Program-made: the position numbers and the translations under genes
Notes under the pieces: model-generated
Database searches by the model: none
Told to the model about the DNA's origin: nothing
Seen by the model: only the letters and a program-made list of their open reading frames with translations
Assembly (NCBI RefSeq): GCF_034531395.1
Contig: NZ_JARVCO010000012.1
Coordinates: 1,178,001 to 1,242,000 of the forward strand
Length of the DNA stretch: 64,000 bases
Source: Pontiella agarivorans
Lineage (GTDB): Bacteria > Verrucomicrobiota > Kiritimatiellia > Kiritimatiellales > Pontiellaceae
Direction: 5' to 3'
Shown here: one piece after another, positions 13,781 through 60,536 of the stretch
Layout: every line of letters starts with the position of its first letter
How positions within the stretch are numbered: the first letter of the stretch is position 1

Positions 13781-13849
13781 AAACTTATAGTGTAAAAAAA
13801 GAGAAAAGGTTGCACCTGCGGTGTTGATTATTTGATTTGGGGAATGATG

Positions 13850-15790: not shown

Positions 15791-15899
15791 CGGTTAATGA
15801 TTTTCTTGGCGGTTTTTTATATGATTTTGGCAAGATCGTTTGTGTTCAACTTGTAAATCCGCCGTATACTGTTTGGCTTTAAATGAAAAAGGATATTCT

Positions 15900-23089: not shown

Positions 23090-24515
23090 AATCAATGAAC
23101 GCGATAACGTCGCCGTCGTTATCTCCGACGATTCGGATAAAATTCCAAGAGGGCATAAAACAGCCCTGGTTCCGATTGAAAAAGGAGAGGCGGTCATTAA
23201 ATACGGTTTTCCGATCGGCTATGCGACCGAGACGATCGAAGCCGGTGACTGGGTGCATGACCATAATGTGAAGACGGGGTTGTCCGGGGTGCAGGAATAT
23301 CCGTATGAACCGGACTTCCGGCTGCCGGGACGTATTGCGGATGGAAAAACCTTTATGGGGTATCCTCGGGCCAATGGGGATGTCGGGATACGCAATGAAC
23401 TCTGGATTGTTCCGACGGTCGGATGTGTGAACGGGCTGGCGGAAAAGGCGGCGGCGCGGCTTTGTGCGGAAGGTTTGCCGGATAATGTGGATGATGTGGT
23501 TGTTCTGGCACATCCGTACGGCTGTTCCCAGCTGGGGGATGATCATGAAGCTTCGCGGACGATTCTCTCGGCATTGGTGAAGCATCCGAATGCCGGAGGT
23601 GTGCTGGTGGTTGGTCTGGGGTGTGAAAACAACACCATGAAAGAGTTCCGGGAGCTGGTCGGGGAAGTGGATGGGGACCGGGTTAAATTTCTGGTGACAC
23701 AGGCGGTGGAGGACGAGCTGGAAGCATGCGGGAGATTGCTGCATGAACTGTGCGAAACGGCGGCAAAAGACCGGCGCGGGCCGGTGCCGGTTTCCAAACT
23801 TCGGATCGGTCTGAAGTGCGGCGGGTCGGATGCTTTTTCGGGGCTGACAGCCAATGCGCTGGTCGGCGCGGTTTCGGACCGTTTGATTGCTCGCGGTGGT
23901 TCGGCCGTGCTGACCGAGATTCCTGAAGCATTCGGTGCGGAAACGATACTGTTCAACCGGTGCGTATCAAAAGCCGTGTTCGATGAGGCGGTGAATGTGG
24001 TGAACGATTTCAAGGAATATTTTTTATCCCACGGTGAACCGGTGGGAGAAAATCCGTCGCCGGGCAATAAGGCCGGCGGGATTACGACGCTGGAAGATAA
24101 ATCGCTCGGTTGTGTGCAGAAGGGCGGAACCGCGCCGTTGAACGATGTGCTGCGTTACGGTGCGCGGGTTCGGAAAAACGGGCTGACTCTGCTGGAGGGT
24201 CCCGGTAATGACATTGTGGCTGTCACTGCGCTGGCGGCGGCGGGCTGTCATATGGTGCTGTTTACCACCGGGCGGGGCACGCCGTTGGGCGGACCGGTTC
24301 CGGTGGTGAAAATTGCTTCCAATTCGGCGTTGGCCGAGCGGAAGAAAAACTGGATTGATTTCAATGCAGGTGTGCTGATGGAAGGCCGGACGATGGATGG
24401 TCTGGGGGATGCGTTTTTTGACGATCTGGTCGATGTGGCCTCAGGACGTAAAACGCGGTCGGAAGAAAACGGATATCGGGATTTTGCCATTTGGAAACAG
24501 GGAGTGACATTGTGA
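23076..24515 (+). CDS. uxaA: Altronate dehydratase, full-length
   Basis: Dehydrates D-altronate to 2-keto-3-deoxy-D-gluconate. The N-terminal SAF-like domain (~1-85; NVAVVISD, GDWVHDHNVKTGL) and the large catalytic domain (IRNELWIVPTVGCVNGLAEK, ALVKHPNAGGVLVVGLGCENN, GLKCGGSDAFSGLTANALVG, LLEGPGNDIVAVTALAAAG) are contiguous as in classical UxaA. 479 aa. No signal peptide. It overlaps the end of uxaB by 14 bases and its TGA shares a base with the ATG of the next GH2 gene (TGATG), so translation is probably coupled through all three. Confidence 0.95.
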   Translation: MKTLKINERDNVAVVISDDSDKIPRGHKTALVPIEKGEAVIKYGFPIGYATETIEAGDWVHDHNVKTGLSGVQEYPYEPDFRLPGRIADGKTFMGYPRANGDVGIRNELWIVPTVGCVNGLAEKAAARLCAEGLPDNVDDVVVLAHPYGCSQLGDDHEASRTILSALVKHPNAGGVLVVGLGCENNTMKEFRELVGEVDGDRVKFLVTQAVEDELEACGRLLHELCETAAKDRRGPVPVSKLRIGLKCGGSDAFSGLTANALVGAVSDRLIARGGSAVLTEIPEAFGAETILFNRCVSKAVFDEAVNVVNDFKEYFLSHGEPVGENPSPGNKAGGITTLEDKSLGCVQKGGTAPLNDVLRYGARVRKNGLTLLEGPGNDIVAVTALAAAGCHMVLFTTGRGTPLGGPVPVVKIASNSALAERKKNWIDFNAGVLMEGRTMDGLGDAFFDDLVDVASGRKTRSEENGYRDFAIWKQGVTL

Positions 24516-34169: not shown

Positions 34170-35747
34170 ATGAAAAAAAGTATGTTATTTGTTGTCCTTG
34201 CGCTGTTAACAGGAATTGATCCGGCTTTTTCAGCTTCGGATCGGCCGAATATTGTTGTGATTCTGGCGGATGATGTAGGTTCCGGGGATATCAGTTTTTA
34301 CCGCAATAAATTTATGGATGGGAAACCGGTTTTTGAAACGCCGAATATTGATGCACTGGCGGAAAACGGCATGTGGTTTACGGATGGCCATTCCTCCACC
34401 TCGCTCTGCGCACCGACGCGCTACGCGATTATGAGTGGAAAAAACAACTACCGTTCCTTTGCGCCCTGGGGCGTTTGGAATTCGTTTCATGAAGGGGCCA
34501 TAAAAAAAGGCGACACCACGCTTGGCACTGTGGCGCGCGACGGCGGGTATGCCACCGGGTTTATCGGGAAATGGCACCTGGGCCTGAATTTCAAAAAACG
34601 GAACGGCGAAGGCTTTTATCGGGGCAGTGATAAAGACGATAAAGTTGTGAATGCCGATATGACGCAGGTGGCTTACGGCGGCCCGATCGATATGGGATTC
34701 GAGTATAGTTATGCGCTGCCGACCGGAGTTCAGGGGCCGCTTTATCTCGCCTATGAAAATGAGAAATGGGCTCCGTTTGAAGAGGGCGTTTCAGAAATCA
34801 TCTGCTTCAACGAAGAGAACGGTTGGGATCCTGAAACGGTGACTGAAGCGGATAAAAAGGGCGTTGGAGCAAAAGGGGTTCTTACGATCTCGGACAAAGG
34901 GCCGGGGATGGGGGATTCCCGCTGGGATACCTCGCGCATTCCCGATATTATTTCGAGCAAAGCGGTGGGTTTCATCAATCAGCATGCCAATAAAAAACCG
35001 TTCTTTCTCTACTACTGCAGTCCCGAAGCGCACCGCCCGCATATTCCGCCGGCCGAGATGGACGGCGTGAAAATTCGCGGAACACTGGCGTCGCGTCATA
35101 TGGAATGCATCAAGGTGCTGGACCTTGAAGTGAAGCGTATTGTGGATGCACTGAAGGCCAACGGAGTATTTGAAAATACGCTGATCTTTTTTATGACCGA
35201 TAACGGTGGTTTGACCTGGAACGTTCCGGGAACCATGGAGTCCGGACACCGTCCGAGCGGCAACTATCGCGGAGCGAAAAGTGCACCGCATGAAGGGGGA
35301 CACCGGGTTCCGTTTGTTGCGCATTGGCCGAAATATATCAAGCCCGGGCAGCTTTCCGGGGAGCTGGTGGTTACGCACGATCTGATGGCTACGGTAGCCC
35401 GGATTGTCGGAACAGAGCTGCGCGATGAGGATACGCTGGATTCCACTAATATTCTGCCGCTTCTGCTGGGTCAGGCGTTTAAACCACGCGATTTTCTGGC
35501 CTGGCAGTCGGGGGCCACGTTTGAAGTGATGTATCGGGAAGGCCCATGGAAACTGATTATCCAGAGCAATCATGAGCTGAGCAAATGGGATCCGATCGAA
35601 CTGTATAATCTGGAGTCCAATCCGAATGAAAGTCCGAAAAAAAATCTGATCAACCATCCGGAATACAAAGCGCGTGCAGAGAAAATGTTTGAAAAGTATG
35701 TGAAAATTCGAAAGAGCGGCGTGCGCACAGCACCGGTTAATTTTTAA
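34170..35747 (+). CDS. Secreted type I (S1) sulfatase, CxPTR type
   Basis: 525 aa from the ATG at 34170 (a TTG at 34167 also exists), after GGGAAG. Signal peptide ~1-22. LADDVGSGD metal site, formylglycine site C80-A-P-T-R (Thr in place of Ser, tolerated in the family), GKWHLG, MTDNGG. Residues ~145-260 form an enlarged insert (KKRNGEGFYRGSD, EEGVSEIICFNEENGWD) between the substrate-binding loops. First of five closely spaced genes (gaps 11-22 bases) ending with GH16 at 41661. Confidence 0.92.
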   Translation: MKKSMLFVVLALLTGIDPAFSASDRPNIVVILADDVGSGDISFYRNKFMDGKPVFETPNIDALAENGMWFTDGHSSTSLCAPTRYAIMSGKNNYRSFAPWGVWNSFHEGAIKKGDTTLGTVARDGGYATGFIGKWHLGLNFKKRNGEGFYRGSDKDDKVVNADMTQVAYGGPIDMGFEYSYALPTGVQGPLYLAYENEKWAPFEEGVSEIICFNEENGWDPETVTEADKKGVGAKGVLTISDKGPGMGDSRWDTSRIPDIISSKAVGFINQHANKKPFFLYYCSPEAHRPHIPPAEMDGVKIRGTLASRHMECIKVLDLEVKRIVDALKANGVFENTLIFFMTDNGGLTWNVPGTMESGHRPSGNYRGAKSAPHEGGHRVPFVAHWPKYIKPGQLSGELVVTHDLMATVARIVGTELRDEDTLDSTNILPLLLGQAFKPRDFLAWQSGATFEVMYREGPWKLIIQSNHELSKWDPIELYNLESNPNESPKKNLINHPEYKARAEKMFEKYVKIRKSGVRTAPVNF

Positions 35748-35758
35748 GGAATACTGTC

Positions 35759-37405
35759 ATGAAAAAATGGATAATTCTTTTTCTGGTTGTTTCGGGCGCG
35801 GTTCTTTCGGGAAGTGCGGCTAAACGAAAACCCAACGTGGTTATCTTCTACACCGATGATCAGCCGATGGATTCATTCGGGTTCATTAACGGGAAAGCGC
35901 ATACCCCGAATATTGATCAGCTGGCGCAGAGCGGGACGTATTTTTCGCGAGCGTATGCCACCAGCAGTGTGTGTTCCCCGAGTCGTTATTCGGCTTTGAC
36001 GGGCCAGTATGCCAGCCGTTGTCAGTCTCCGCAGTTCCGAAAGGAAATCAGTACTGAAGGGGTAACAAAAGTGCTGTGGAATATGGGAATGGAAGAAGGG
36101 CAGTGGAACTTTCCGCGGGTCATGCAGGCTAATGGTTATAAGACCGGTATGGTTGGAAAATGGCATGTCGGATCCAGCGGAAAACATGGTTATCGCAAAT
36201 CGGTTCCGAATAATGATCCGAAAGATCCGGCAGTTATTGAGGTGCTGAAATATAATCAGGAATACTACTGCAAAGACATTGCCGAATTCGGGTTTGATTA
36301 TGTCGGTGCGGCGTTTCACGGAAATCCAAACGATGATCCGAACCTGGTGAAAACCGGGTGTAATGTGCATGTGCCGGAGTGGCAGACCATGCATGCACTG
36401 AACTTTATCGAGGAAAATAAGGATGAGCCGTTTGTCCTCTACTATGCCTCCACCCTGCTGCACGTTCCGGATTGTACGGCCGATCTGAAAAAAGATCCGC
36501 GTCTGACGCCGCTGGGCTGGATGGATGAGCCGATTGCTCCGGGAGTTCTGCCGCCGCGTGAAGATGTGCTGCGTCGGGCCCGTGAAGCCGGTGTTCCGGA
36601 AAGCGAGAACGGAAAGCTGATTGCCGCCACCTGGCTGGATGATGTGGTCGGAGCCGTGCAGCATAAGCTGAAAGAGCTGGGGCTGGATGATAATACGCTG
36701 GTGATTTACTTTAACGACAATAGTACGGATGACCAGGGCAAAGGATCCTGTTACCAGGGGGGCGCACATGTGCCGATGATGGTGAATCTGCCCGGTGTTG
36801 TAAAACCGGGAGAACGAAAAGAGCTGGTGGCTAATATTGATATTGCGCCGACGATTTTTGATTTCTGCGGCGTTACTCCGCCGGAAGATATGGTGCTGGA
36901 CGGTGCGAGCCTGATGCCGCTTTGCCGGGGTGAAAATGTAAGCGACTGGCGGGACGCCATGTTCCTGGAAATCGGAATTACCCGTGCGGTGGTAACCGAC
37001 GACAATTTCAAGTATCTTGCATTCCGCGTTCCGGAGAGCTACACGAATCGACCGAAGGAAGAGATTCTGAAAGAACATCGGGAGTCTCTGGCGAACATTC
37101 ATAAGATGTTTCCCTGGACGAAGAAAATGTGGCATGAGGAAGAAAATCCAAGATACATGCACATGGGCATGGCCCCGGGCGGCCACCATATGGAACGTTT
37201 TCAGCTCTATCTGAACCATCCGCCGTTTGAAAAAAATTATTTTGATCCGGATCAGCTTTACGACCTTAACCGCGATCCACGTGAAACCACGAATCTGGCG
37301 GAAAATCCGGAATATCAGGCCAAGCTCCAGAAAATGCAGAAGAAACTCAGCCGACTGCTGGCTGATGTTCCGGGAACATTTGCGGAGCTGAAACCGGAAG
37401 AATAA
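35759..37405 (+). CDS. Secreted type I (S1) sulfatase
   Basis: 548 aa, signal peptide ~1-20, ATG after AAGGAATACTGTC. YTDDQPMDSFG replaces the usual DDxGxxD: Asp33-Asp34 are kept and the third acidic residue is shifted. C72-S-P-S-R formylglycine site, GKWHVG, FNDNST in place of the common SDNG motif. The C-terminal region is long (YMHMGMAPGGHHMERF). It is a divergent subfamily compared with the other sulfatases here. Placed 11 bases after the preceding sulfatase. Confidence 0.9.
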   Translation: MKKWIILFLVVSGAVLSGSAAKRKPNVVIFYTDDQPMDSFGFINGKAHTPNIDQLAQSGTYFSRAYATSSVCSPSRYSALTGQYASRCQSPQFRKEISTEGVTKVLWNMGMEEGQWNFPRVMQANGYKTGMVGKWHVGSSGKHGYRKSVPNNDPKDPAVIEVLKYNQEYYCKDIAEFGFDYVGAAFHGNPNDDPNLVKTGCNVHVPEWQTMHALNFIEENKDEPFVLYYASTLLHVPDCTADLKKDPRLTPLGWMDEPIAPGVLPPREDVLRRAREAGVPESENGKLIAATWLDDVVGAVQHKLKELGLDDNTLVIYFNDNSTDDQGKGSCYQGGAHVPMMVNLPGVVKPGERKELVANIDIAPTIFDFCGVTPPEDMVLDGASLMPLCRGENVSDWRDAMFLEIGITRAVVTDDNFKYLAFRVPESYTNRPKEEILKEHRESLANIHKMFPWTKKMWHEEENPRYMHMGMAPGGHHMERFQLYLNHPPFEKNYFDPDQLYDLNRDPRETTNLAENPEYQAKLQKMQKKLSRLLADVPGTFAELKPEE

Positions 37406-37427: not shown

Positions 37428-38858
37428 ATGAGAAGGGATCTATTCCTGAGCGTGCTGCTGCTTGCAGGCATCGGTGTGAGCAATGCGGAGGAGTCGCCGT
37501 GGACGACGGCGAACCGGATTGCGATCAGTGCGGACGGCAATCCGGACGCGGATGCGGACGATGTCGGTGCCTCGCCGATCTCGCTGGCGATGCTCGCAAA
37601 AGCGGGCCTGCAGGAAAATCTGGTGCATTATGACTTTAATAATTTCCTGAATTATAAACGGATTGATCCGGGAAATAATCGGATGTGGCAAGGGGCGATG
37701 GGCGGACAGGCCCGGTGGGGATTTGATAAAAACCGCTTTTTCGATGCGGCTGTTGATCCGCAGGGTGCCGTGGCGCATCTGACTGAAGAGATCAATAAAT
37801 CCACGGCTGCTGATCCGTTGTATCTGATCGTGGCGGGGCCGATGGAGCTGATTTTCCAGGCGTTGGAAGCGGCGGAACCTGAGGCGCGGAAAAGGGTGAT
37901 TCTGGTTTCGCACCATAATTACAATGAATATTTCAAGGCGCGTCTATGGCATCGGAACTGGAACGACGTGCAGGCACTGGTTCCGGAAATTGGATATTTG
38001 AGAATTAAAGATCAGAACGGTTGGGACGGAAGCGGGCTGAAAGGGAAAGGCTATGCGGACTTTTACTGGCTACGTGATCATGCGGATCCCAACCTCAACT
38101 GGGTTTATGAGCGCATCAGGGCCGGGAAGCCGGATGTTTCGGATGCGGGGATGCTGGCCTGGCTGATGGGGATCAGTGGCGATGACGAAATGGTGACGAT
38201 TCAGGAAATGCGGCAGTGGTTTGGGCCGGATTTGGTTCCGGCGCCGGGCGGCGTTCCGGAAACACCGGCTGCGCCGGCGGGGGTGGAGCCTGAGGTCATT
38301 CCTCCGGCTGCTGATCAGGTATTTCTTGAAGTGGACGGAAAACTGGTGATCGAAGCGGAATCGGTTCCGCTTTCCAGAGGTTGGAAAAACGACGGAACCG
38401 GGGCCATTCGCTGGGAACCGCCGGAAGGCAAAGGCGTCAGCCACCAGCATCAGGGCGAGCTGATGTATACGATACGGATTTCCAATCCCGGGAAGTACCG
38501 TATGGCGCTGAAGTCTGCACATGACGGTGCCGGGTTAAAGGATGATTGGAGCAGTTGTTATACGCTGATGGGGCTCAATCCGGTCAGTCCCTATGGCAAT
38601 ACGCGGAAAACCGGTTTTCCGGCGAATGAAAATTCCGGATTCACGTGGGATACGGCTCATAAGAACTATGGCGCGGTCCGGTCGAAAGAGGGCAGAGTGT
38701 CGGAACCGGTTTATGATTTATCAGCAGGCGATCACTGTTTCTGGATCTGTGGACGGTCGAGTGGATTCCGCATCGATAAAATTCATTTTTTCAAAACCGG
38801 AATTGCCGGGTTCAAAAGTGACTCGGAAGCGGCAACGCTGTTTGTTACGGGGAATTAA
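37428..38858 (+). CDS. Exported nucleoside-hydrolase-like domain plus carbohydrate-binding-like domain
   Basis: 476 aa with signal peptide ~1-20. The N-terminal ~260 residues open with an acidic cluster ([15 protein letters not shown]) at the place where nucleoside hydrolases hold their Ca-binding Asp residues, followed by [20 protein letters not shown] and [10 protein letters not shown], as in exported nucleoside-hydrolase-like proteins of marine PVC bacteria and Bacteroidetes. A Pro/Ala linker (~268-290) leads to a ~180-residue beta-sandwich ([35 protein letters not shown]) like a carbohydrate-binding module. Nucleosides are an unlikely substrate in a sulfated-galactan operon; an unrecognised N- or O-glycosidase or a binding protein is possible. 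The family call is tentative. Confidence 0.6.
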
Positions 38859-38878
38859 TCAAACGTATGGGTGTAGTG

Positions 38879-40735
38879 ATGAAGAAAAAAATCAGTGTAT
38901 TGCTTTTCAGTGGAATATGTATTGCGGCGGCTTATGCCGCGGAGAAAAGACCGAATGTGCTGTGGATTGTGACGGATGACCAGCGGCCCGATTCGCTGGC
39001 CTGTTTTAACCGGGCGGTCTATGGAACCGATGAAAGTCCGCTGGGCTATGTGGAGTCGCCGAATGTGGATGCGCTGGCTGACGAAGGGGTGCTGTTTACA
39101 CGCGCCATCTGCAACTCGCCGGCCTGCGGTCCGTCGCGCGGTTCCATGCACAGCGGGCGCTATCCATTCCGCAACGGGCATTATCAGTTTGAACTGACGC
39201 ATCAGTTTCCGGATTTTGTGAAACCGATCATTCATCAGACGCTGCGCAAGAACGGCTACAGCACGGCGGTATTCGGTAAGTCGGATTCCTACATTTACAC
39301 CGAAGTCGGTAAATATGTGACGGCCGGACTGTTCGGGACTAAAGTTCATTTTAAACACGATCTGCAGGCAAACGGTTTCGGCGATATTTATGCCGGAGGA
39401 TATAGCCCGGACGGAACCACGGAAAAAGTAATGTATCCCGATGGCAGTATTCGGGAATATTTCCTTAAACGGAATTCGGGCGCGCTGACCGAAGAGGATA
39501 TTGCGGAGCGCAGAAAGACGGATAAGGAATTTGATATTCTCCGCGCTGATACGGAAGGGTTTTACAGCAAAAAGCTGATCTATGGCGGGGTTAATCCGCA
39601 ACCGGATGATAAGACGATTGACGCCTATATTGTTAAGGAATTCAAAAGCTATCTGGATCATGCCGATACGGAATACTCCACCTGTTTCGGCCGGAAACAG
39701 CAAGGCGTTCCAACGGCAAAGCCGGCGATGACGGAAATCGGTTTCCGCCTGCCGCATACGCCGGTGCTTCCGCCGAAATCCTTCCGCGATCGTTTTCAGA
39801 AAAAGAGTTATCGGGTACCGGAATTCAGTAATGATGAAGTTGAAAAACTTCCGCCGCAACTGCAGCAGCTTTCGCGGGGCATGAAGGTGCTGGGGACTCC
39901 GGAGGATATTTCAGCGAACCGGGCTTATACCCCCGAAAAATTCCAGCAGGCCGTGCAGGACTATTATGCATTCTGTGCGCATGGAGATCAATTGATCGGA
40001 GAGGCCGTAAAAGAGTTCAAAAAATACTGTGCTGAAAATAAAAGGGATTACCTGATTATTTATACGGTCGGGGACCACGGCTGGCAGCTGGGCGAACAGG
40101 GGATTGAGACCAAGTTCAGCCCGTGGCGTGAATCGGTTCATAACGCGGCGATTGTGGTGTCGTCCGATAAAACCAAATTTCCGGCGGGCAAGGTGTATGA
40201 CGGTATCGTGGAATATGTCGATTTCATGCCGACTATCCTCGCGGCTGCCGGCGTGGATATCCACGATCCGCAGTATGATTATATGGATGGTTACGATCTG
40301 GCGGAAGTGCTGTCGGGGAAAGCCGTTAAACGTGAATATGCACTGGGCGAAATGAACCTGATTTATGGGCCGCGTGCTTATATGCGGTCGGAGGATTTTG
40401 CATTTTCGATGCGTACCCGTCCGAATAACGGCAAGCCGCAGGAAGGGAATCTGAACAAAGATATCAAATGGGCTCTGGAGTGTCCGGTGGAGAAAGCCGA
40501 GCTGGCACTGTACGATCTGCGCAGGGATCCGCTGGAACGCAACAACGTGGCGAATGATCCGCACTATCGTGAGCTTGCGGCCTGGTTCCGTCAGAAACTG
40601 GGAAATATTGTGCTGGGCGACGGCCGGGTGGAATGCGACTGGAATCAGAAAAACAGTTATAAAATCAGCACCTTTGCGAAAGGCGCGGATGATAAAAAAC
40701 TCGATATTCCGGCCGAAATTGTGCCTGCACTTTAA
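38879..40735 (+). CDS. Secreted type I (S1) sulfatase, CGPSR type
   Basis: 618 aa from the ATG at 38879 (ATG 38867 is also possible; neither has a strong ribosome-binding site). Signal peptide ~1-20. [11 protein letters not shown]83-G-P-S-R formylglycine site, FGKSDSY in place of [17 protein letters not shown]. The missing GKWH and the GDHGWQLGE motif match the iduronate-2-sulfatase-like group of S1 enzymes and not the arylsulfatase A-like group. Substrate unknown. Located between the nucleoside-hydrolase-like gene (20-base gap) and GH16 (11-base gap). Confidence 0.9.
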
Positions 40736-40746
40736 AGGAGATGGAA

Positions 40747-41661
40747 ATGGATTACCGAAAACCACATCCGATTTTAAACCTGGGCGGCTGTCTGCTGTTG
40801 CCTCTTTTGCTGGTTTCCTGTCAGTCGGGTGCATTCCGGGATGCTCCGGCGGGCCCGACGATTACCGATGAAAACAGCGCCTTGCCGGAAGGAATGAAGT
40901 GGAAGCTGGTTGACGGCATGTCGGACGAATTTAACGGCCGGAAAGTAAACTTGAAAAAATGGCAGGTGGATCCTGTCGGAAACAGTTTTACCTGGGAAGG
41001 GCGTCCGCCGGGGCTGTTCCGTGCAGATAATATCTGGGTGAAGGACGGCAACCTGCGGGTCAAAGTGGATGTGCTGGATGAGCCGTATGAGGGCGTGGAG
41101 GGAACCTACACGTATTCGGGGGGAATTGTTCGGTCGATTATGCCGGGACAGGTGGGATGGTATTACGAATGCCGGATGAAAGCCAATGCCACCGAGATGT
41201 CTTCCACCTTCTGGATGCTGACTATCGGCGGTCCCGATGAAGCGTTGGAACTCGATATTCAGGAGTGCGTCGGCCGTACGACCGATTTAACCCATAAATG
41301 GGCGAAGAACTGGAACCGAATTTTTCATTCCAACGCGATTCACTGGCGTTATTTCAGCGAACCGAAAGAGACGAAAGCGCAGGGCTGGGAATATCTGGAG
41401 GAAAAGAATTCCAGCCGTTATTTTGTGTACGGCGCATGGTGGAAATCGCCGGAGGAAATCCGTTTTTATCTGGATGGGGAATATAAATATTCCATTAATC
41501 CGGAAACGCACTGGGACTGGCCGGCCTATCTGCACATGGCGATCGAAACCTATGACTGGAATCCGATTCCGGAAGACGGCGGACTGGTGGCTTCGGGAAC
41601 GCTCGACGAGCGCACCACCAAATATGACTGGATCCGCACCTGGAAGCCGGCTGAGAAATAA
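40747..41661 (+). CDS. GH16 galactanase lipoprotein (agarase/porphyranase/carrageenase type)
   Basis: 304 aa from the ATG at 40747, 6 bases after AAAGGAG; ATG 40741 directly abuts that site. Lipobox LLVSC, Cys25, predicts a surface or periplasmic lipoprotein. The GH16 retaining active site is E168-L-D-I-Q-E173 (nucleophile Glu168, acid/base Glu173), embedded in WMLTIGG...ELDIQECVG. ADNIWVKDGNLRVKV and YYECRMKAN are typical beta-jelly-roll strands. Endo-acting on beta-1,4 bonds of a red-algal galactan is the expected role; which galactan cannot be told without subfamily assignment. Final gene of the sulfatase run. Confidence 0.88.
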   Translation: MDYRKPHPILNLGGCLLLPLLLVSCQSGAFRDAPAGPTITDENSALPEGMKWKLVDGMSDEFNGRKVNLKKWQVDPVGNSFTWEGRPPGLFRADNIWVKDGNLRVKVDVLDEPYEGVEGTYTYSGGIVRSIMPGQVGWYYECRMKANATEMSSTFWMLTIGGPDEALELDIQECVGRTTDLTHKWAKNWNRIFHSNAIHWRYFSEPKETKAQGWEYLEEKNSSRYFVYGAWWKSPEEIRFYLDGEYKYSINPETHWDWPAYLHMAIETYDWNPIPEDGGLVASGTLDERTTKYDWIRTWKPAEK

Positions 41662-48081: not shown

Positions 48082-50583
48082 ATGATGAAAAGTGTGATGA
48101 ATGATAAGCAGGTGATGACGGAGGAAAATGCGGTATCCCGCTCCGGACACGCCGGAGGAAGGCTGAAGCATGATCTGAGCGGTTTTCTGTGGAAGCTGGA
48201 AGGGTGTCTGCCGGGCCGGGGTATGGAGCAGAAGTTTCCGGAAATCAACCATGATCATATGGGCGATATGCTGGACTGGTCGCATGCGCATGTTCCGGGT
48301 GATGTTTTTACCGATCTGTGGCGCATCGGCCGTATTGAGGATCCGCATTATGCCCGGAACAGTCTTAAAGCCAAATGGGTGAATGAATATGAATGGTGGT
48401 ATATGCGCCATTTTAACGTTCCGCCGGAAATGGAAGGGAAGCGGATTGAGGTGACCTTTGAAGGGGTCGACTATGCCTGTGACGTGTTTGTGAATGGAAC
48501 GCCGATGGGTTCGCATGAAGGGATGTTCACCGCCTTTTCATTTGATATTACGGATCTCGTGAGTTTTGAACAGCTTGCCCGCGGTCGTAACCTTCTGGCG
48601 GTCCGGCTGCATCCGGCGCCCCGGCGTTACAGCCGGGTGGCCGGCAGAAAGCCTGCCTGGCATGGGGATTACTGGACGAGCGTGGTGCCGTCCGGGATCT
48701 GGAAACCGGTTTATCTGGAGGCCTATGACGAAGCCCGGATTGAAGATATTTATGTAAAGACCTCTGTGCAGGATGACGGGTCTGCTGATGTTGTTCTTGA
48801 GATTGAAGTTCTGCATCACGGAAAAACGGAGCGTACGGTTGATGTTGTAGTTGCGGTTCAGGGCGAAAATGTCCGGACGGAGGAAGTTGAAATTTCCGTA
48901 CAGCAGACGCTGCAGTCCGGCCGCAATATGTTCCGCATTTCGGTTCGGATTGAGGATGCGAAACTCTGGTATCCCTGGGATCTGGGGGAGCAGAACCTGT
49001 ATACAGCGAGCGTCTGCCTGAAAGAATACGGTAAACCGCTCGATGCCCGGGAGCAGCTGTTCGGTATTCGCGAATTGGAAATGAAAATGAATCCGGGCTT
49101 TACGGAGGATGAGGTTGAATATCCGTGGACGTTGATGATCAACGGCAAACGTCATTTTATCCGTTCCGGAACCTGGGGCGGCCCGCCGGATATCTTTTTC
49201 GGCCGTGCAACGGATGAAAAGTATGAGGAGCTGATTCGGCTGGCGAAAGCGGCCAATATGAACAACCTGCGGATTTTCGGGTGGCACCCGACGGAAATAC
49301 CGTATTTCTATGAGTTGTGTAATCGCGAAGGAATCACCGTCTGGCAGGATATTCTGCCGATAGCGAGTCTGTCGCTGCCGGAAGAAGAGGCCTATAAAGA
49401 GGCGATTTTCTCGGATGCGGTTGATGTGGTGAAACAGCTTCGGAATCATCCGTGCATGGTGATCATTGAAGGCGGTGAGGAGATTCTGATGAGTGCCTCC
49501 GATCCGGCTCACAACCTGCAGCTGATGAATGAACTGGGTGAAGTCGTTAAACCCTACACGGATCTGCATTATATTCCGGTTTCGCCGTTGAGTGATGATG
49601 TCGGGGTTTCGCTGGGGTTTAAACCGAAAGAAAGTGTGCATGCCAACGGACTGTTTTACGGCGAAGGACGGAACACCATTGAACGGTATTACCGTAAGCT
49701 GGATTTTGCGGCGGTTCCTGAGCTGGCGATTTCCTCGTGCCCGAATGTGGAGAGTATTAAAAAGTTTATTCCGGAAGAAGAACTGTGGCCGCCCGGACCG
49801 AGCTGGGGGCATCACTGGACCGACTTTGATGTTTTCCGGACACTGAACTTTGAAGTGCTCGGTACCCAGGCAACGGGGGGACTGCAGGAGTTTGTGGAGG
49901 CCACACAGATTACGCAGGGGGTTCACTTTCAGTATGCCCTTGAATTTTTCCGGCGGAGAAAACCGAAAACCAGTGCACTCTGCATCTGTCACTACATTAC
50001 CTTCGCTCCGGATATGAAGTGGGGTGTGGTTGATTATTATCAGCAGCCGAAGCGGTCGTATGAATATCTGCGTCTGGCCTATCAGCCGCTGCTGATTTCG
50101 CTGGATTATGAGAAACGGCGCTGGCTGCCCGGGGAGGATTTCGAAGGTCGGCTGTGGGTGGTGAATGACCGCTATGAACCGTTCCACGGATGTAAAGCGA
50201 AAGTCTGCTTCCGTTCATCAGGCTGTGAAGATGTGTTTGTGGAAGAGGTCGAACTCGGCGAAATTAAACCGGACAGCTCGGCAGAATTTGCAACGGTGAG
50301 GTGTAAGGTTCCGGGAAAGCTGGGCGACCGTTTTCATATCGAAGTTGAAATGACGGATGCCGCAGGTGCGGTCGTTTCGGAAAATAAATATCTGCTGCTG
50401 GTTGCTGATGAGCGCGTTGATCTTCCAAGACTGAAGGAGATCGGTGCAGAGGCGATTACACGGAAAGTGAAATTCGGCAATTGCAACTATCTTCGTTATT
50501 TCGACGGTCTGAATCATACGCCGGGCGTAGAAACCGCCGATGAAAAAATGCCGACGGTAAAGGAATTTGTTTATGAAAAGTGA
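48082..50583 (+). CDS. Cytoplasmic GH2 enzyme of beta-mannosidase-like type
   Basis: 833 aa, no signal peptide. An N-terminal galactose-binding-like domain ([49 protein letters not shown]) and Ig-like domains lead into the barrel ([23 protein letters not shown]-like region). The usual GN[ND]E acid/base motif reads IEGGEE (Glu467), and the nucleophile segment [17 protein letters not shown] keeps Glu547 when aligned with SEFGFQS.PS.E. Both catalytic residues therefore appear present. The clade is that of mannosidase/exo-glucosaminidase-like GH2, but the substrate here is unknown. The 3' end overlaps the GH29 gene by 11 bases. Confidence 0.8.
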
Positions 50584-52003
50584 TCAACGGTTCAAATCGG
50601 ACTGGGAGTCGCTGTCGGCCTATCAATGTCCGGAATGGTTTCACGATGCCAAGTTCGGCATCTATGCGCACTGGGGGGTCTATTCTGCAACCAGAGCGCC
50701 GGAGAATACGGACTGGTATGGGTGCGGCATGTATGAAGAGGGACACCCGAATAATGTGTTCCATCGCGAAACCTACGGACCGGTGGATCAGTTCGGCTAC
50801 AAGGATTTTGTGCCGCGTTTTACAGGGGAACATTTCAATGCTGAAGCCTGGGCGGACCTGTTTGAGGAAGCCGGGGCCCAGTTTGCCGGACCGGTCGGTG
50901 AACACGCAGATGGTTTTGCCATGTGGGATTCAACCGTAAATCCCTGGAACGCCGCGAAAAAGGGGCCGTGCCGCGATGTGGTGGCCGAAATGGAACAGGC
51001 GGTCCGGAGCCGGGGGATGAAGTTTATGGTGAGTATGCATCATTCCTGGCTGTGGGGCTGGTTCCCGACCTGGCTGGAGAATACGGACTGTGCAGATCCG
51101 GCGAATGCCTCGCTGTACGGACCCCGGCTGCCGAAAACGGCACGCCATATTGAAGGTATTCAAACGAAGTCGTGTGATCCGATGCCGAGTCCGGACTTTG
51201 AACGGATCTGGCTGGAGAAAGTGAAGGAAGTGGTCGAGGGTTATTCGCCGGATCTGCTCTGGTTTGACAACCGGGTGGAGATTCTTTCAGAAACCGTCCG
51301 GAAACAGATGCTGGCCCATTATTATAATCATGCGGCAGAGCGGAACCAGGATGTGGTGATGACCTTCAAGCGGCCGGATTTTCCGCTGGGTGTCGGTACC
51401 GTTGATCTGGAACGGGCGCGGATGCCGGAGATTTATCCGGAACCCTGGCTGACGGATACATCGATCTCGCGAACTTCGTGGAGTTGGGCGCTGAATCTGG
51501 AGTGCTATGACGAAAACCGGCTCATCGGCGATCTTGTGGATATTGTCAGTAAGAACGGCTGTCTGCTGCTCAATCTTGCTCCTCACCCGGATGGAACGAT
51601 TCCGGAAGAACAGCAACAGCGCCTGAAGAATATGGGCCGGTGGCTGAAGCTGAATGGTGAGGCGATCTATAGAACCCGCCCCTGGATCATCTATGGTGAA
51701 GGACCTTCAAAAGCCCGGGAGGGGCATCTGGCGGATATGACGTTTGATGGGTATACGGATCGTGATATCCGTTATACCACCCGTGACGGACAGCTTTATG
51801 CGATTGCGCTGAGCTGGCCGGAATCCGGCGTGCTGTCGATCCGTTCACTGGGCAGCCATCATTACAACGGCCGTATTTCCGAAGTTGAACTGATCGGCCA
51901 TGAAGGGCCGTTGAAATGGGGGCAGGAAGGCGCTGGCCTCGAGATTATCCTGCCGGAATATAAACCGTGTGAGTATGCTTATGTCTTCAGAATATACCGA
52001 TGA
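50573..52003 (+). CDS. Cytoplasmic GH29 alpha-L-fucosidase/alpha-L-galactosidase
   Basis: 476 aa from the ATG at 50573, which lies inside the end of the preceding gene; AAGGAA upstream. No signal peptide. GH29 barrel: [36 protein letters not shown], nucleophile Asp232 in [22 protein letters not shown] small C-terminal beta domain follows. GH29 enzymes of porphyran-using gut bacteria act on alpha-L-galactose, so alpha-L-galactosidase activity is plausible here (inference from neighbours). A second, exported GH29 lies at 60537-62036. Confidence 0.88.
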
Positions 52004-53105
52004 AAGATCGGAACGTCTGGGAATCACCAACCCGGACTGTTTAAGTGCCGCCTCGAAACGGGCGCTGGCCTGGCCGGAGCGCAGCAACAACTGGTACGGA
52101 ACCTTTTCTGTCAGCGACCTGAAGGGGGATCTGGCTTATGAGAAAGGCGTCACGCGTCGCGACCCGAGTTCCGTTCTTTTTGAGGATGGAGTGTATCATG
52201 TCTGGTACACGAAGTCGGAGGGGCCGAGTGTGGGTTTTACCGATAATTTCGATGATAAAGTGTGGCCCTGGGATTATGCCGAAATCTGGCATGCGACGTC
52301 GGAGGACGGCATTACGTGGAACGAGGATCAACGTGCAGTGGGTCGGGGAGAAGCCGGAGCTTTTGATGATCGCTCCGTGTTTACCCCGGAGGTGTTAAAC
52401 CATGAAGGAACCTACTATCTGGTTTACCAGACGGTAAAATCGCCCTACATCCAGCGTGCAAAAGAGCAGATCGGAATTGCGTCGGCCGCATCGCCGTATG
52501 GCCCCTGGATAAAGCATCCTGAACCGATTCTGAGTCCTGCGGACAACGGCATATGGAAGGGGAATGATCCGCACGACCGGTTCAGTGTGATTAAAAAAGG
52601 CGATTTCGACAGCCATAAGGTACATGATCCTTATCTCACATTTTATAACGGCAGGTTTCATCTGTATTACAAAGGGGAACAGATGGGCTGGGAGATCAAC
52701 TTCGGCGGGCGTGAGATCCGGCACGGTGTTGCGATGTCTGATTCGCCGTTCGGGCCTTATGAAAAATCACCGTTCAATCCGATTTCCAACAGCGGACATG
52801 AAGTGGCGGTCTGGCATTATAACGGCGGTATCGGGTCGCTGATTACCACCGACGGACCGGAGCGCAATACGATTCAGTGGGCGCCTGACGGCATCAATTT
52901 TGAAATTCTGGCGTATATACAGAATGCACCGCATGCCATGGGGCTGCTGCGTAAAAATGATGATTCAGCGATTCCTTTCACCATTTTCGAATGGGGGCTG
53001 ACACATGAATATATGAACAGCAATGATCAGTATATCCGCCGGTTCGACGGGCATCAGCATGAGCGGATTTTCACCTCCAGTACGTATAAATCTATCGAGG
53101 GATAA
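51981..53105 (+). CDS. Cytoplasmic GH117 alpha-1,3-(3,6-anhydro)-L-galactosidase-like enzyme
   Basis: About 374 aa; possible starts are GTG 51969, ATG 51975 and ATG 51981, all overlapping the end of the GH29 gene. No signal peptide. Five-bladed propeller with GH117 signatures: [61 protein letters not shown] and [15 protein letters not shown]. The family releases 3,6-anhydro-L-galactose from the non-reducing end of neoagaro-oligosaccharides. It has the same core as the exported GH117 at 57285-58571 but lacks that protein's long loops (GMARARE, PPKPQPGWRS), so specificity may differ. Overlap suggests coupling with GH29. Confidence 0.85.
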
Positions 53106-53109
53106 GCGA

Positions 53110-55020
53110 ATGCAAATAATCAGTGGCAAAACCGTTGTTTTGAGTGTGCTGTTTATGGGGCTGATGAGTCACGCCCGAACAACCGTCGATATTCAGCTTA
53201 ATATGAAATATTCAGTGGGCGGGATTTCATCCTTTGACCGCCATAAGTATATCAATGCACATTCACATCTCTCGGAACCTGACTGGGTGGGTGAGGATGA
53301 ACTGCTGGATATATTGGTCTCGGATCTGAATGTTTCTTTCGGGCGCGATAACGGAACAATGATTGAATACCTGCGGCAGGCTCCGGAAGATCCGGACCGG
53401 CCGGGTTATGTGGATCCGGAATATCTGAAAAACGCCGGGCGGATTCATCGTAAAATCATCTATGGAAGTCACAAAGCCTATCTGCATAAATATGACGCTG
53501 TTAACGATGTTATGATCGGCGGACAGCCCCATGCGTTTCTGCCGAGCCCCGGGGAAGAGAAAACGAAGTGGGAGCTGGGCGGTGCTGACGCTGTCGGTGA
53601 ATATATGGGTCGTTTTCTGCAGGAGTTTTACCGGAACCCGGGTGAGCCTCCGACGGCGGGACAGTCGCGTCCCGGGTTTATCGAAATTCTGAATGAACCG
53701 CTGTATCATTTTATCGACGGCCGTCGCGGAGATATCCGTAGCGCAAAATCCATTTTCGAATTTCATAACGGCGCGGCGAAGGCGATTCGCCGGTTTGATC
53801 CCGATGTACTGATTGGCGGTCCGACGATGGCGTTTCCGATTTTTGAAGAACGGGATTTCGCACGGTGGGATGAGCGGATGAAACTGTTTATCGATACCTG
53901 TGGCGAGCAGATGGATTTTTATTCGCTTCATTTCTATGACTTCAACAACCGGGGGGATCGCGCGCGTGATGATTATAAAGGGTCCCGTCTGGAAGCTACG
54001 CTGGATATGATCGAACAGTACAGTCTGATCCGGCTGGGGGAGGTTAAGCCGTTTATTATTTCGGAATATGGCGGACGGGATCATAAACTGGAAAACCGGG
54101 TCTGGACCGCGTTGCGTGACTGGCATTTTCTTAAGGCTGCAACGCCGTTAACACTGCAGTTGCTGGATCGACCGAATATGATTCTTAAATCGATTCCTTT
54201 TATTACCGCCAAGGCGGAATGGGGCCGCAAAAACGGGGTGCCGTATAACCGTCGTCTGATGCATCAGATGAAAGAGCGTCCGGGCCGGTTCGGCGAGGAC
54301 TGGATCTTCACGGATCTGGTGTTGTTTTATGAACTGTGGTCGGATGTGAACGGAACGCGGGTGAAGAGTGCTTCCGATAATCCTGATGTGCTGCTCGACA
54401 GCTATGTGGATGGTAAAAAAGCCTATGTGATTCTGAGTAACCTGAATCCGGTGGAGGAGACGGTTGATCTGAATCTTTCCAGCGGAATGGAATCCGCACG
54501 GATTAAGCATCTGTACCGCGTGGCAGACGGTCCGCTGCTGGAGGAGAAAACGGTTATGAAGGAATTGAAGTCGTTTACCTTAAAACCGGAGGCCAGTGCT
54601 GTTATTGCGTGTTCGTTTGCCGATTCCATTGCCATTACTGAAACGGTTGAGGAACATAAGTTTTATGCGTCGGATTATAACCGCCCGATTACAGCCGGGC
54701 GCCCGGTTGAGTTTGCGCTGAATGAGGTTCAGCCGCTAACGTCGGGTGAGGCCGTGCTGCGTGTCGGATTCGGGAGAGAACCGGATCGTTCCCGTCGGCC
54801 TGAAGTCGTTTTCAACGGAACCGCGCTGGAGGTTCCGGATCATTACAGCGGCAGTGACCAGCCGACGCGTCCGGCCTTTTTCGGCCTGCTTGAAATTCCG
54901 GTTCCTATTGAACGGATTAAAAAGAACAATAGTGTGGAGATCATGTTTCCGGATAGTGGCGGCCGGATCAGTAGTGTGACCCTGCAGACGGTTGACGCCG
55001 GATTAAACGGTCGGAAGTGA
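53110..55020 (+). CDS. Exported GH86 beta-agarase/beta-porphyranase (copy 1)
   Basis: 636 aa; the ATG at 53110 lies 4 bases after the preceding stop, and the longer frame from 53023 is overlap only. Signal peptide ~1-21. GH86 pattern: MKYSVGGISSFDRHKYINAH at the start of the barrel, DVMIGGQPHAF, acid/base Glu196 in EILNEPLYHF, SLHFYDFNN, nucleophile Glu319 in IISEYGG. C-terminal beta-sandwich domains follow (~430-636). Endo-hydrolysis of beta-1,4 bonds in agarose or porphyran is the known family activity. A second GH86 follows at 55264, separated only by a small gene. Confidence 0.92.
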   Translation: MQIISGKTVVLSVLFMGLMSHARTTVDIQLNMKYSVGGISSFDRHKYINAHSHLSEPDWVGEDELLDILVSDLNVSFGRDNGTMIEYLRQAPEDPDRPGYVDPEYLKNAGRIHRKIIYGSHKAYLHKYDAVNDVMIGGQPHAFLPSPGEEKTKWELGGADAVGEYMGRFLQEFYRNPGEPPTAGQSRPGFIEILNEPLYHFIDGRRGDIRSAKSIFEFHNGAAKAIRRFDPDVLIGGPTMAFPIFEERDFARWDERMKLFIDTCGEQMDFYSLHFYDFNNRGDRARDDYKGSRLEATLDMIEQYSLIRLGEVKPFIISEYGGRDHKLENRVWTALRDWHFLKAATPLTLQLLDRPNMILKSIPFITAKAEWGRKNGVPYNRRLMHQMKERPGRFGEDWIFTDLVLFYELWSDVNGTRVKSASDNPDVLLDSYVDGKKAYVILSNLNPVEETVDLNLSSGMESARIKHLYRVADGPLLEEKTVMKELKSFTLKPEASAVIACSFADSIAITETVEEHKFYASDYNRPITAGRPVEFALNEVQPLTSGEAVLRVGFGREPDRSRRPEVVFNGTALEVPDHYSGSDQPTRPAFFGLLEIPVPIERIKKNNSVEIMFPDSGGRISSVTLQTVDAGLNGRK

Positions 55021-55031
55021 CCGGAGGAATC

Positions 55032-55247
55032 ATGACGATTAAACGGGTTTTACTATCGGCCGGCATGCTTGCTCTCACGCCCGACGGTTCGGGGAACGGG
55101 AAACCGGCCATCATGGAAATCCGGGAGAATGTCCGGCATGAAGTCGCCAGAGCCCGGACTCCGGAAGAATGGGGGAATGAGGTTGCATTAAATCTGTTTA
55201 TGGAAGCGGTCATTACTGAGGGGTGGAATCAGCTGCATGTTAAATAA
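55032..55247 (+). CDS. Small protein of unknown function (71 aa)
   Basis: Supported by a good GGAGG site 4 bases before the ATG and by fitting tightly between the two GH86 genes (11-base and 16-base gaps) in the same direction. The N-terminus is weakly hydrophobic (TIKRVLLSAGMLALT) and the rest is charged (EIRENVRHEVARARTPEEWG). No family recognised. It may be a genuine small exported or membrane-associated protein or a remnant of a larger gene. Confidence 0.5.
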   Translation: MTIKRVLLSAGMLALTPDGSGNGKPAIMEIRENVRHEVARARTPEEWGNEVALNLFMEAVITEGWNQLHVK

Positions 55248-55263
55248 AAATACGGAGTTAATG

Positions 55264-57180
55264 ATGAAGATGAAGTGGATCGGTCTTTTTGCGGCGGTTA
55301 TTACGGCGAATCAAAACGGGATAGCGGAAGAACAGCCGGTTTCGGTGACGGTCAACCTGAACGTCCGGCATTCTGTCGGCGGGGTGGATGCTTTCGATCG
55401 TGAAAAATGGATGGTGCTGCATGCGCGGGCGACCGAGCATGACTGGGATTCCGAGGAACAGCGGGAAACGTTTCTAAATGAATACGATGTTTATCTGGGG
55501 CGCGACTGCGGGGCTTTGCCGGAGGCGCTGTCGTGGACCTCGGAGGATCCGGATAAACCGGGCTGGTGTGATCATGCCTGTATTGAGCAGCTCGGAAAGC
55601 GGGAGCGGGAACGGTATGCGCAGAACACTGCGGTCCATGCGCTGGAATACCGCAGTAAAAAAATGACCATCGGCGGCCAACCGAAAATGTTCCCGGACGG
55701 CAGTACAAACGCGAATGGATTTGCGATCGGAAGTTATGATGCGCTGGCCGACTTTTATGAGCAGTATCTGACGCATTTTACCGGTAGCGGAGGAACGGAC
55801 GGTCCGCCGAAACCGGCGATGCTTGAAGTGGTGAATGAACCCTTTGTTCATGCCCGTGAGCATAACACAACCTATGCGGAAATTTCCGAATTTCACAACA
55901 AGGTGGCAGAGCGTGTTAAGCGGTTGCATCCTGATCTTCTGATCGGCGGATATACCGCTGCGCATCCGGGGTTTGAAGATCATGATTTTGGACACTGGGA
56001 TAAAAACTGGCGGCAGTTTATTGATATTGCCGGCGGGAATATGGATTTCTTTTCTCTGCATCTCTATGACAATCCGCTCAAAAACAAGGATCCGCAGAAC
56101 AGTATCTACCGCAGCGGAAGCAATGTGGAAGCCATTCTGGATATGGTGGAGCACTACAGCTTCCTTAAACTGGGAGAGGTGAAACCGCTCAATATTTCGG
56201 AATACGGTTGTCTGCGTGTGGGCAACGGATTTCCCTACAGTCCGGACGAGGCATGGCGCTGCACCCGATCCTACAATACGATTCTGATGCAGCTGCTGGA
56301 ACGTCCGGATCGGATTATCCAGGCTATCCCGTTTATGGTTCTGAAAGCGGAGTGGGGGCGTAAAGACGGGTATCCGTATCCGAAACGGCTCTTGTATGAT
56401 GTGGATGAACTGAAAGGCCGCCCGAAGGATAATGACGGTCCCTGGGCCTATACACCGCGTCTTAATTTCTGGGAGCTGTGGAAAGGGGTTAAGGGAACAC
56501 GTGTTGATACCATCGCCTCTGACCCGGATATTCAGGTTGATGCCTATGTGAACGGTGCCGATGTGTTTGCGGTTGTCAGCAGTCTGGATCATACGGGACC
56601 GCAAACGGTGGAACTCAGTATGCTGGGAGCTGCTGAAGATCTGTTGAGGGTCGAGGTTAAGCATGCGCATGCGGATGAAAATCTTGAGCCGGTAATCGAT
56701 GAATTTGAGCGCGCTTCGCTGGAACGGATCACGCTGGGGGCCTCTGCAACTGCGATGCTGAAATTCTCTTATCGGGCCCCGCTTAAAACGGATGAAGTCT
56801 CTGTGGAAAAGAAATATTACGCAACGACCTATCTGCAACCGATAAAGGCTGATGAGCCGGTTCGTTTCAGGATTGAGGGGGTGAGGCGGGCTTCTTCTTA
56901 CGGTGAGGCGGTTTTGCGCCTGGGTATGGGCCGGGAGCACGGGCGTTCGCTCCATCCCGTCGTTCGGGTGAACGGAACGTCGGTTGAGGTTCCGACCGAT
57001 TGGCGGGGCTATGATCAGGCGACCCGAAATCAGTTTTTCGGCGTTGTGGAGATTCCGGTTGAGTATGACCTGTTGGAGAAGAACAACACGGTTGAAGTGA
57101 TCTTTCCTGATGATGGCGGTCATGTATCTAGTTTGGCCATGCAGGTGTTTGAATTCAGCGCTGACATTCGTCCTGATTAG
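55264..57180 (+). CDS. Exported GH86 beta-agarase/beta-porphyranase (copy 2)
   Basis: 638 aa from the ATG at 55264, 6 bases after GGAG (ATG 55261 and 55270 are neighbours). Signal peptide ~1-23. LNVRHSVGGVDAFDREKW, MTIGGQPKMF, acid/base Glu192 in EVVNEPFVHA, SLHLYDNPL, nucleophile Glu313 in NISEYGC. C-terminal beta domains as in copy 1 (VEVIFPDDGGHVSSLAMQV). The two copies align over their full length but have clearly diverged, for example around the acid/base loop (YHFIDGRRGD versus VHAREHNTTYAE). That is compatible with one acting on agarose blocks and one on porphyran blocks (inference). Confidence 0.92.
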   Translation: MKMKWIGLFAAVITANQNGIAEEQPVSVTVNLNVRHSVGGVDAFDREKWMVLHARATEHDWDSEEQRETFLNEYDVYLGRDCGALPEALSWTSEDPDKPGWCDHACIEQLGKRERERYAQNTAVHALEYRSKKMTIGGQPKMFPDGSTNANGFAIGSYDALADFYEQYLTHFTGSGGTDGPPKPAMLEVVNEPFVHAREHNTTYAEISEFHNKVAERVKRLHPDLLIGGYTAAHPGFEDHDFGHWDKNWRQFIDIAGGNMDFFSLHLYDNPLKNKDPQNSIYRSGSNVEAILDMVEHYSFLKLGEVKPLNISEYGCLRVGNGFPYSPDEAWRCTRSYNTILMQLLERPDRIIQAIPFMVLKAEWGRKDGYPYPKRLLYDVDELKGRPKDNDGPWAYTPRLNFWELWKGVKGTRVDTIASDPDIQVDAYVNGADVFAVVSSLDHTGPQTVELSMLGAAEDLLRVEVKHAHADENLEPVIDEFERASLERITLGASATAMLKFSYRAPLKTDEVSVEKKYYATTYLQPIKADEPVRFRIEGVRRASSYGEAVLRLGMGREHGRSLHPVVRVNGTSVEVPTDWRGYDQATRNQFFGVVEIPVEYDLLEKNNTVEVIFPDDGGHVSSLAMQVFEFSADIRPD

Positions 57181-57284
57181 AAAGTATCGGGAGGCGGTAC
57201 AGTTTTCATTCAATCCGGGAATTCATCCCGGACGTATAAAACAGAGCGCAATTCCTCCGGACAGGAAGGTATAAGGACTCAATT

Positions 57285-58571: not shown

Positions 58572-58834
58572 AATCGGAAGGTTTTGAAGGGATCTGTTTC
58601 CAGACGTTTTTTCCGTCGGTCCGGAGGGTTGAAGGGGGGACGGATGCTGATCAATGGGACAGGGGACAAGGCCAGGCGCGGCTGGTACATTTTGATGGTC
58701 GAGGCATTCTGTCTTTTCGAGAACAGATACCGGGCGCGGTGTCAAGTTGGATGATCGGTTCATTGAACCCCGGACGTTCTTCGTAAATGATGTGCGATGG
58801 ATACAACAGGAATTTGATCAAAGGAGTAATGAGT

Positions 58835-60514: not shown

Positions 60515-60536
60515 TCAATCTTTCACAGAAGATTTC

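Follow-up and report, generated by a model that had tools for sequence, protein, structure and literature searches.

A secreted protein of predicted nucleoside-hydrolase fold with a conserved acidic site in a porphyran/agar locus of Pontiella agarivorans

Described nucleoside-hydrolase folds and the porphyran/agar locus

Proteins of nucleoside-hydrolase (NH) fold that are tied to carbohydrates are already known in kind. The solved member of PF07632 (Sde182_NH-like), 2yhg from Saccharophagus degradans, was solved in 2011 and bears in the PDB the namings 'cellulose-binding protein' and 'nucleoside hydrolase-related hypothetical protein'. It has in common with the protein described here the NH fold, the context of a carbohydrate degrader and a D...DD loop, and is the best structural match of our full-length model (Z 12.9), whereas our protein lacks a PF07632 match (E ≤ 1), carries a different C-terminal domain and displays SH...N, DQN and D-x-SD-x-GM motifs without the EGDTP motif. 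The inosine-uridine NHs (PF01156; 2mas and RihA, 3g5i) also have the fold in common (Z 9-12), and our protein has acidic residues at D10/D14/D15/D242-like positions in what we take to be their numbering. It nevertheless differs from them by an identity of only ~8-17%, by the lack of a profile match, by a longer loop separating D36 from the DD pair, by a Ser where the catalytic His presumably stands, and by being secreted with a CBM-like domain and encoded in a sulfated-galactan operon. The C-terminal domain is similar in fold to the GH115 C-terminal domain (PF17829) and to CBM6/CBM35 but has no Pfam match. Finally, known porphyran/agar utilisation loci, with their GH16, GH86, GH29, GH117 and S1 sulfatases, resemble our locus in gene content, to which the latter adds an unnamed NH-fold protein. 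Our literature searches turned up no publication about an NH-fold protein encoded in a polysaccharide locus.

The window analysed is a 64,000-nucleotide stretch of the P. agarivorans genome (contig NZ_JARVCO010000012.1, positions 1,178,001 to 1,242,000), in which the whole gene of interest occupies positions 37428..38858 on the + strand and encodes 476 residues. The following features lie on the same strand. The upstream part of the cluster (24491..33786) comprises a GH2, a sulfatase, a second GH2 and a protein with a TonB-like N-terminus, and is followed by a sulfatase of the same apparent operon (34167..35747; PF00884, E 1.2e-39) and by the sulfatase directly upstream of the NH-fold gene (35759..37405; PF00884, E 2.8e-39), from which it is separated by 22 bp. 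Directly downstream lies another sulfatase (38867..40735; Pfam Sulfatase, E 2.4e-28), whose PDB matches include an exo-L-galactose-6-sulfatase and which starts after 8 bp if its first ATG (38867) is used or after 20 bp with the ATG at 38879; next to it is a β-porphyranase-like GH16 enzyme (40741..41661; best PDB match porphyranase B, 3juu, E 4.3e-60). A further group (50567..62036) encodes a GH29, a GH43/GH117-like enzyme, two GH86 that both carry a β-porphyranase C-terminal domain (BPA_C), a GH117 (57285-58571; PDB matches include anhydro-L-galactosidases, 4u6d E 3e-192), a sulfatase and a GH29.

The window as a whole contains a GH16 porphyranase, two GH86, a GH117 with a second, weaker GH117-like gene, two GH29, four GH2 and many sulfatases, so that GH16 and GH86 porphyranases are clustered with exo-enzymes and sulfatases, as in a porphyran/agar locus. 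Carrageenan, which the original prediction had listed among the substrates to screen, was rejected as the main assignment of the locus in view of the porphyranase-type GH16 match together with GH86 and GH117. The original prediction had placed the gene between two sulfatases at gaps of about 20 bases, in a sulfatase/GH16 operon, and had inferred that the protein may serve as a glycosidase or binding protein for sulfated galactan; the arrangement is as described and the galactan can be narrowed to porphyran/agar. PMC10880615 describes P. agarivorans NLcol2T as an anaerobe growing on agarose, agar, a carrageenan and dried Porphyra.

The same window encodes a GLAA-B/GH110-like enzyme of exo-α-galactosidase type with GLAA-B β-barrel domains (15840-17696). 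It also encodes two related proteins (31909-33786 and 13832-15733) whose N-terminus is TonB-like and rich in Lys and Pro, with an SHD1 match in the second. Homologues of these TonB-like proteins adjoin the family loci L016, L071 and L076 and are also present in the Pontiella control stretches L088 and L104; they are possibly a recurrent surface component of such loci.

Domains of the protein and its acidic site

The protein begins with an apparent signal peptide recognised by eye (residues 1-21; 37428..37490, + strand), in agreement with the predicted secretion, and a Pro-rich linker joins its N-terminal domain (residues 24-270; 37497..38237, +) to a C-terminal β-sandwich (residues 295-465; 38310..38822, +). 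The open reading frame is not a chance one, because it has orthologues of 51-75% identity in Planctomycetota and Verrucomicrobiota (Pontiella relatives, Rhodopirellula, an Opitutales, an Akkermansiaceae and Roseibacillus). A promoter and terminator scan was uninformative, with counts near or below shuffled expectation. The full-length protein matched nothing in Pfam (E ≤ 1), NCBIfam (E ≤ 10) or PADLOC (E ≤ 1), nor any PDB sequence by phmmer (E ≤ 1) or by profile (E ≤ 10). Specifically, neither IU_nuc_hydro (PF01156) nor Sde182_NH-like (PF07632) matched it at E ≤ 1, although the PF01156 model does detect true NHs in related genomes; a PF07632 match was likewise absent from 10 of 10 relatives. 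No CAZyme model in Pfam matched the protein, its relatives or its C-terminal domain, which yielded no family, GH115_C (PF17829) included, when searched alone; one relative (L026) matched PF17829, at E 0.015 only.

Assignment of the N-terminal domain to the NH fold comes from structural comparison with VIA-align, a second look taken after plain Foldseek searches had given no significant NH. Two independent AlphaFold2 models were compared, one of the full-length protein (9 sequences, mean pLDDT 55.6) and one of the N-terminal domain alone (10 sequences, mean pLDDT 67.3). With the full-length model, VIA-align placed 2yhg first (200 aligned residues, 3.3 Å), followed, among the matches listed, by 43 entries of the NH superfamily (Z 10.5-12.0), while the N-terminal model gave NHs or 2yhg, without exception, as its best 27 matches (Z 9.0-11.2), ahead of an unrelated entry at Z 6.0. 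The best 50 Foldseek matches of the full-length model were carbohydrate-binding or GH115 domains and unrelated proteins, with no NH among them; for the N-terminal model Foldseek returned nothing at E ≤ 0.001; G6PDH ranked first and an NH, at E 0.033, ranked third. On these models, whose confidence is modest, an NH fold of the N-terminal domain is well supported. Most of the Asp loop has a pLDDT below 50 in both models, and the geometry of a Ca site therefore cannot be read from them.

Kinship with NHs is weakly backed by profile-profile comparison also. A set of 29 distinct domains was assembled after removal of duplicates, short pieces and four fragments, and two broken copies (L014 and L023) were left out of the alignments. 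Compared by hhalign with an IU_nuc_hydro-type profile, the 29-domain profile gave a probability of 72% (score 41.6), pairing R-I-A-I-S-A-D36...D44-D45 with the D-x-D...D-D motif of NHs; reversed and unrelated control profiles gave ≤ 1.4%. A second NH-like branch (L118, L119 and a tandem domain of Catenovulum L037) matched the family at 95-97%, and the two combined matched NHs at 76% and the Sde182 type at 74%, a comparison in which the 29-domain family alone had reached 4.6%. The second branch alone gave 0.5-1.3% with NHs, removal of the tandem domain from the 29-domain family lowered its NH match to 37%, and all of the NH and Sde182 probabilities stay below 80%. A PF07632-type protein of the same genome (L040), whose DDSDSATFW motif resembles ours, was tried as a bridge and discarded (hhalign 0.6-9%).

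The Asp-rich stretch noticed originally is present at residues 36-45, where the motif D36-G-N-P-D-A-D42-A-D44-D45 (37533..37562, +), a candidate metal site, pairs with the NH DD motif. Loss of this cluster in homologues, which had been proposed as a refutation, was looked for, and the cluster is kept in 28-29 of 29 domains: D36, G37 and N38 occur in 28, the 29th having a truncated envelope, and D42, D44, D45 and A48 in all. G137 is equally invariant, as are H162 and N166 of the S161-H162...N166 motif (37908..37925, +), which would supply an acid and sugar-binding residues, H162 being a candidate acid from its conservation. In the D195-Q196-N197 motif (38010..38018, +), D195 is kept in 27/29, Q196 in 28/29 and N197 in 29/29 domains. 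A second acidic motif, DVSD (236-239), opens D236-V-S238-D239-A-G241-M242 (38133..38153, +), with D236, S238 and D239 in 29/29 domains and G241 in 28/29. We take D36, D44, D45 and D239 to stand for D10, D14, D15 and D242 of the Crithidia NH. The NH catalytic His, H241, which lies beside D242, would then presumably correspond to S238, so that every one of the 29 domains has S238-D239 with a Ser in the place of that His.

The C-terminal domain is CBM-like, in line with the binding-like domain initially proposed: in VIA-align it matches GH115 C-terminal domains at Z 9.5-10.4 (7pxq, Z 10.4), and Foldseek likewise places carbohydrate-binding and GH115 matches on the full-length model. Ricin-type lectin and LamG modules are attached in relatives, in which inspection by eye also detected a CBM-like domain, preceding or following the NH-like one, and a second sandwich domain that recurs. 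One Catenovulum plasmid protein (L037:10627-12759) combines an N-terminal sandwich domain with a tandem of two NH-like domains, each from a different branch. The second branch (L118:695-1555 and L119:2131-5001) has no NH Pfam match and displays the motifs D..D.DD, QH.dWNE and DFSD; in L119 the NH-like domain is followed by CBM-like and PKD domains.

A CBM- or GH115_C-like domain and further binding-type modules would also suit a protein without catalysis, whose NH fold and C-terminal sandwich would only trap sulfated galactan on the cell surface or display it there. Such a role in binding alone is the chief alternative to an enzymatic one, and both the 'cellulose-binding' naming of 2yhg and the existence of NH-fold proteins without an assigned nucleosidase role (XopQ with ADP-ribose is among the VIA-align matches listed) speak for it. 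We nevertheless consider it rather unlikely, as the putative site, H162, N166 and N197 included, is invariant across clades sharing only ~30-40% identity, which fits catalysis more than binding.

Distribution and genomic neighbours of the family

The whole protein was matched in 12 of 387 Verrucomicrobiota genomes, two of which (G186 and G235) match its C-terminal domain only; a profile search with the N-terminal domain found 11 of the 387, one of them weakly (G032, E 1.8e-5), and the close subfamily is present in 7. Divergent relatives are plasmid-borne in Persicobacter, Catenovulum and Alteromonas (6 of 72,556 records), and a scan of viral_contigs gave 163 pattern matches with no relative among them. 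Where annotated, members of the family are labelled 'hypothetical protein', and the family, whose hosts are degraders of algal polysaccharides from four phyla, has no name in the libraries that we searched.

Presence of the close subfamily coincides with that of GH86. PF18040 (GH86) was detected in 12 of the 387 genomes, including all seven that encode the subfamily (hypergeometric p 3e-12, a statistic that ignores relatedness). Of the 10 genomes from within the genus, 4 encode both and 6 neither; outside the genus, GH86 is present in 3 of 3 subfamily genomes (p 6e-6). In six of the seven the PF18040 match has an E-value of 6.8e-27 or better (4.5e-7 in the seventh, G240), and the other five PF18040 genomes, which lack the subfamily, have one match each, none better than E 4.8e-10. 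As a control, the alginate lyase model PF08787 was found in 14 of 387 genomes and in 2 of the 7. Three genomes with divergent N-terminal domains only (G157, G277 and G339) are devoid of PF18040.

Sulfatases are frequent neighbours as well. A sulfatase-like gene was found in the flank of 19 out of 27 family loci, the window's own included, as compared to 2 out of 20 control stretches (Fisher p 7e-5), flank lengths differing among the 27 loci and the controls being taken from three genomes at round-number positions; the flank examined held no sulfatase at the remaining 8. In this count L072, L075, L076 and L078 stand in for the same places as L006, L009, L010 and L013, and L085, L086 and the short loci L001-L005 and L017-L034 were left out. 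The order of the genes itself is kept in L071 (G380), with a GH2, a TonB-like gene, two sulfatases, the NH-fold gene, two sulfatases and a GH16, and largely kept in L072 also.

A true secreted nucleosidase, or a nucleotide-sugar or ADP-ribose hydrolase, that lies in the operon by chance and scavenges nucleosides from algal debris would account for the NH fold. We regard such an activity as most unlikely in view of the linkage to sulfatases and the exact co-occurrence with GH86, to which are added the missing PF01156 match despite the ability of that model to find true NHs in related genomes, the replacement of the NH catalytic His by Ser and the attached carbohydrate-binding modules.

A tree of 28 of the 29 domains (L037_3_199 was left out) contains a clade of porphyran type with 14 rows (100/99) and a pair formed by Persicobacter and Catenovulum; two other clades include, respectively, the four paralogues of the present genome and the pAlt76 member. 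The deep joins of the tree, where long branches meet, are unsure. The four divergent paralogues occupy a second stretch with sulfatases (L015 and L016, G000:C10:808-859 kb), three of them carrying a ricin-type lectin, and BPA_C matches lie near this stretch on the same contig. Two genes of the family are damaged. In L014:7920-11056, a close homologue, the N-terminal piece ends after ~130 residues and the C-terminal domain is in another frame, which makes it a broken or deleted copy. The divergent copy L023 (G157:C122:19133-19906) has two in-frame stops and adjoins a PF07632 gene (L039); it is a decayed NH-like gene beside an Sde182-type gene.

The pAlt76 member, of a divergent clade, sits between a GH43 and a sulfatase on a replicon that PMC6431674 presents as the ulvan plasmid of Alteromonas 76-1, and further relatives lie near GH88, GH86 or GH2. 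Such a range would be explained if the enzyme removed a decoration rather than cutting the backbone, such as a minor side-chain sugar or another substituent common to several algal polysaccharides, as relatives would then be expected at ulvan as well as agar-type loci. Against this explanation, the tree leaves room for divergent clades that have simply switched substrate, and our data name no decoration; we judge it distinctly unlikely.

A possible route from nucleoside to galactan cleavage

From the conserved site we infer catalysis, and from the locus its substrate. At about even confidence, we propose a secreted hydrolase of the NH superfamily, probably dependent on Ca2+, that would act on agar- or porphyran-type oligosaccharides or polymer, held there by its CBM-like C-terminal domain. 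A metal ion would be bound by D44/D45 and D239 (D14/D15 and D242 in NHs), together with D36 (D10), and would chelate a vicinal diol of the sugar at the cleavage site, as with the 2',3'-hydroxyls of ribose in NHs; D36 would activate water, and H162 or a neighbour may protonate the leaving O-glycosidic oxygen. In porphyran a free 2,3-diol is present on the 4-linked L-galactose(-6-sulfate) unit, and the L-galactosyl linkage is therefore the first candidate substrate; its cleavage could precede or follow the action of the neighbouring sulfatases. No gap in the pathway demands a new glycosidase, because the locus already encodes recognised agar/porphyran enzymes.

More tentatively, the protein may be the first of a family of glycoside hydrolases built on the NH fold. 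It would then be an O-glycosidase that depends on a metal, chelating the 2,3-diol of L-galactose(-6-sulfate), and tied to agar/porphyran use in Planctomycetota and Verrucomicrobiota, with sister clades on ulvan and other algal polysaccharides. The original suggestion of a possible new enzyme family is reasonable on this point, because neither Pfam nor NCBIfam has a match, but the accompanying idea of a recruited fold is not wholly new, because a carbohydrate-linked relative, 2yhg, was solved in 2011.

Most glycosidases use two carboxylates. If the protein is an enzyme, a metal-dependent mechanism borrowed from nucleoside cleavage would thus join polysaccharide breakdown. Since the family is unnamed in degraders of four phyla, one characterised member would annotate several loci. 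Owing to the close association with GH86 in Verrucomicrobiota, the substrate can be tested directly in an anaerobe that is in culture and uses agar and Porphyra for growth.
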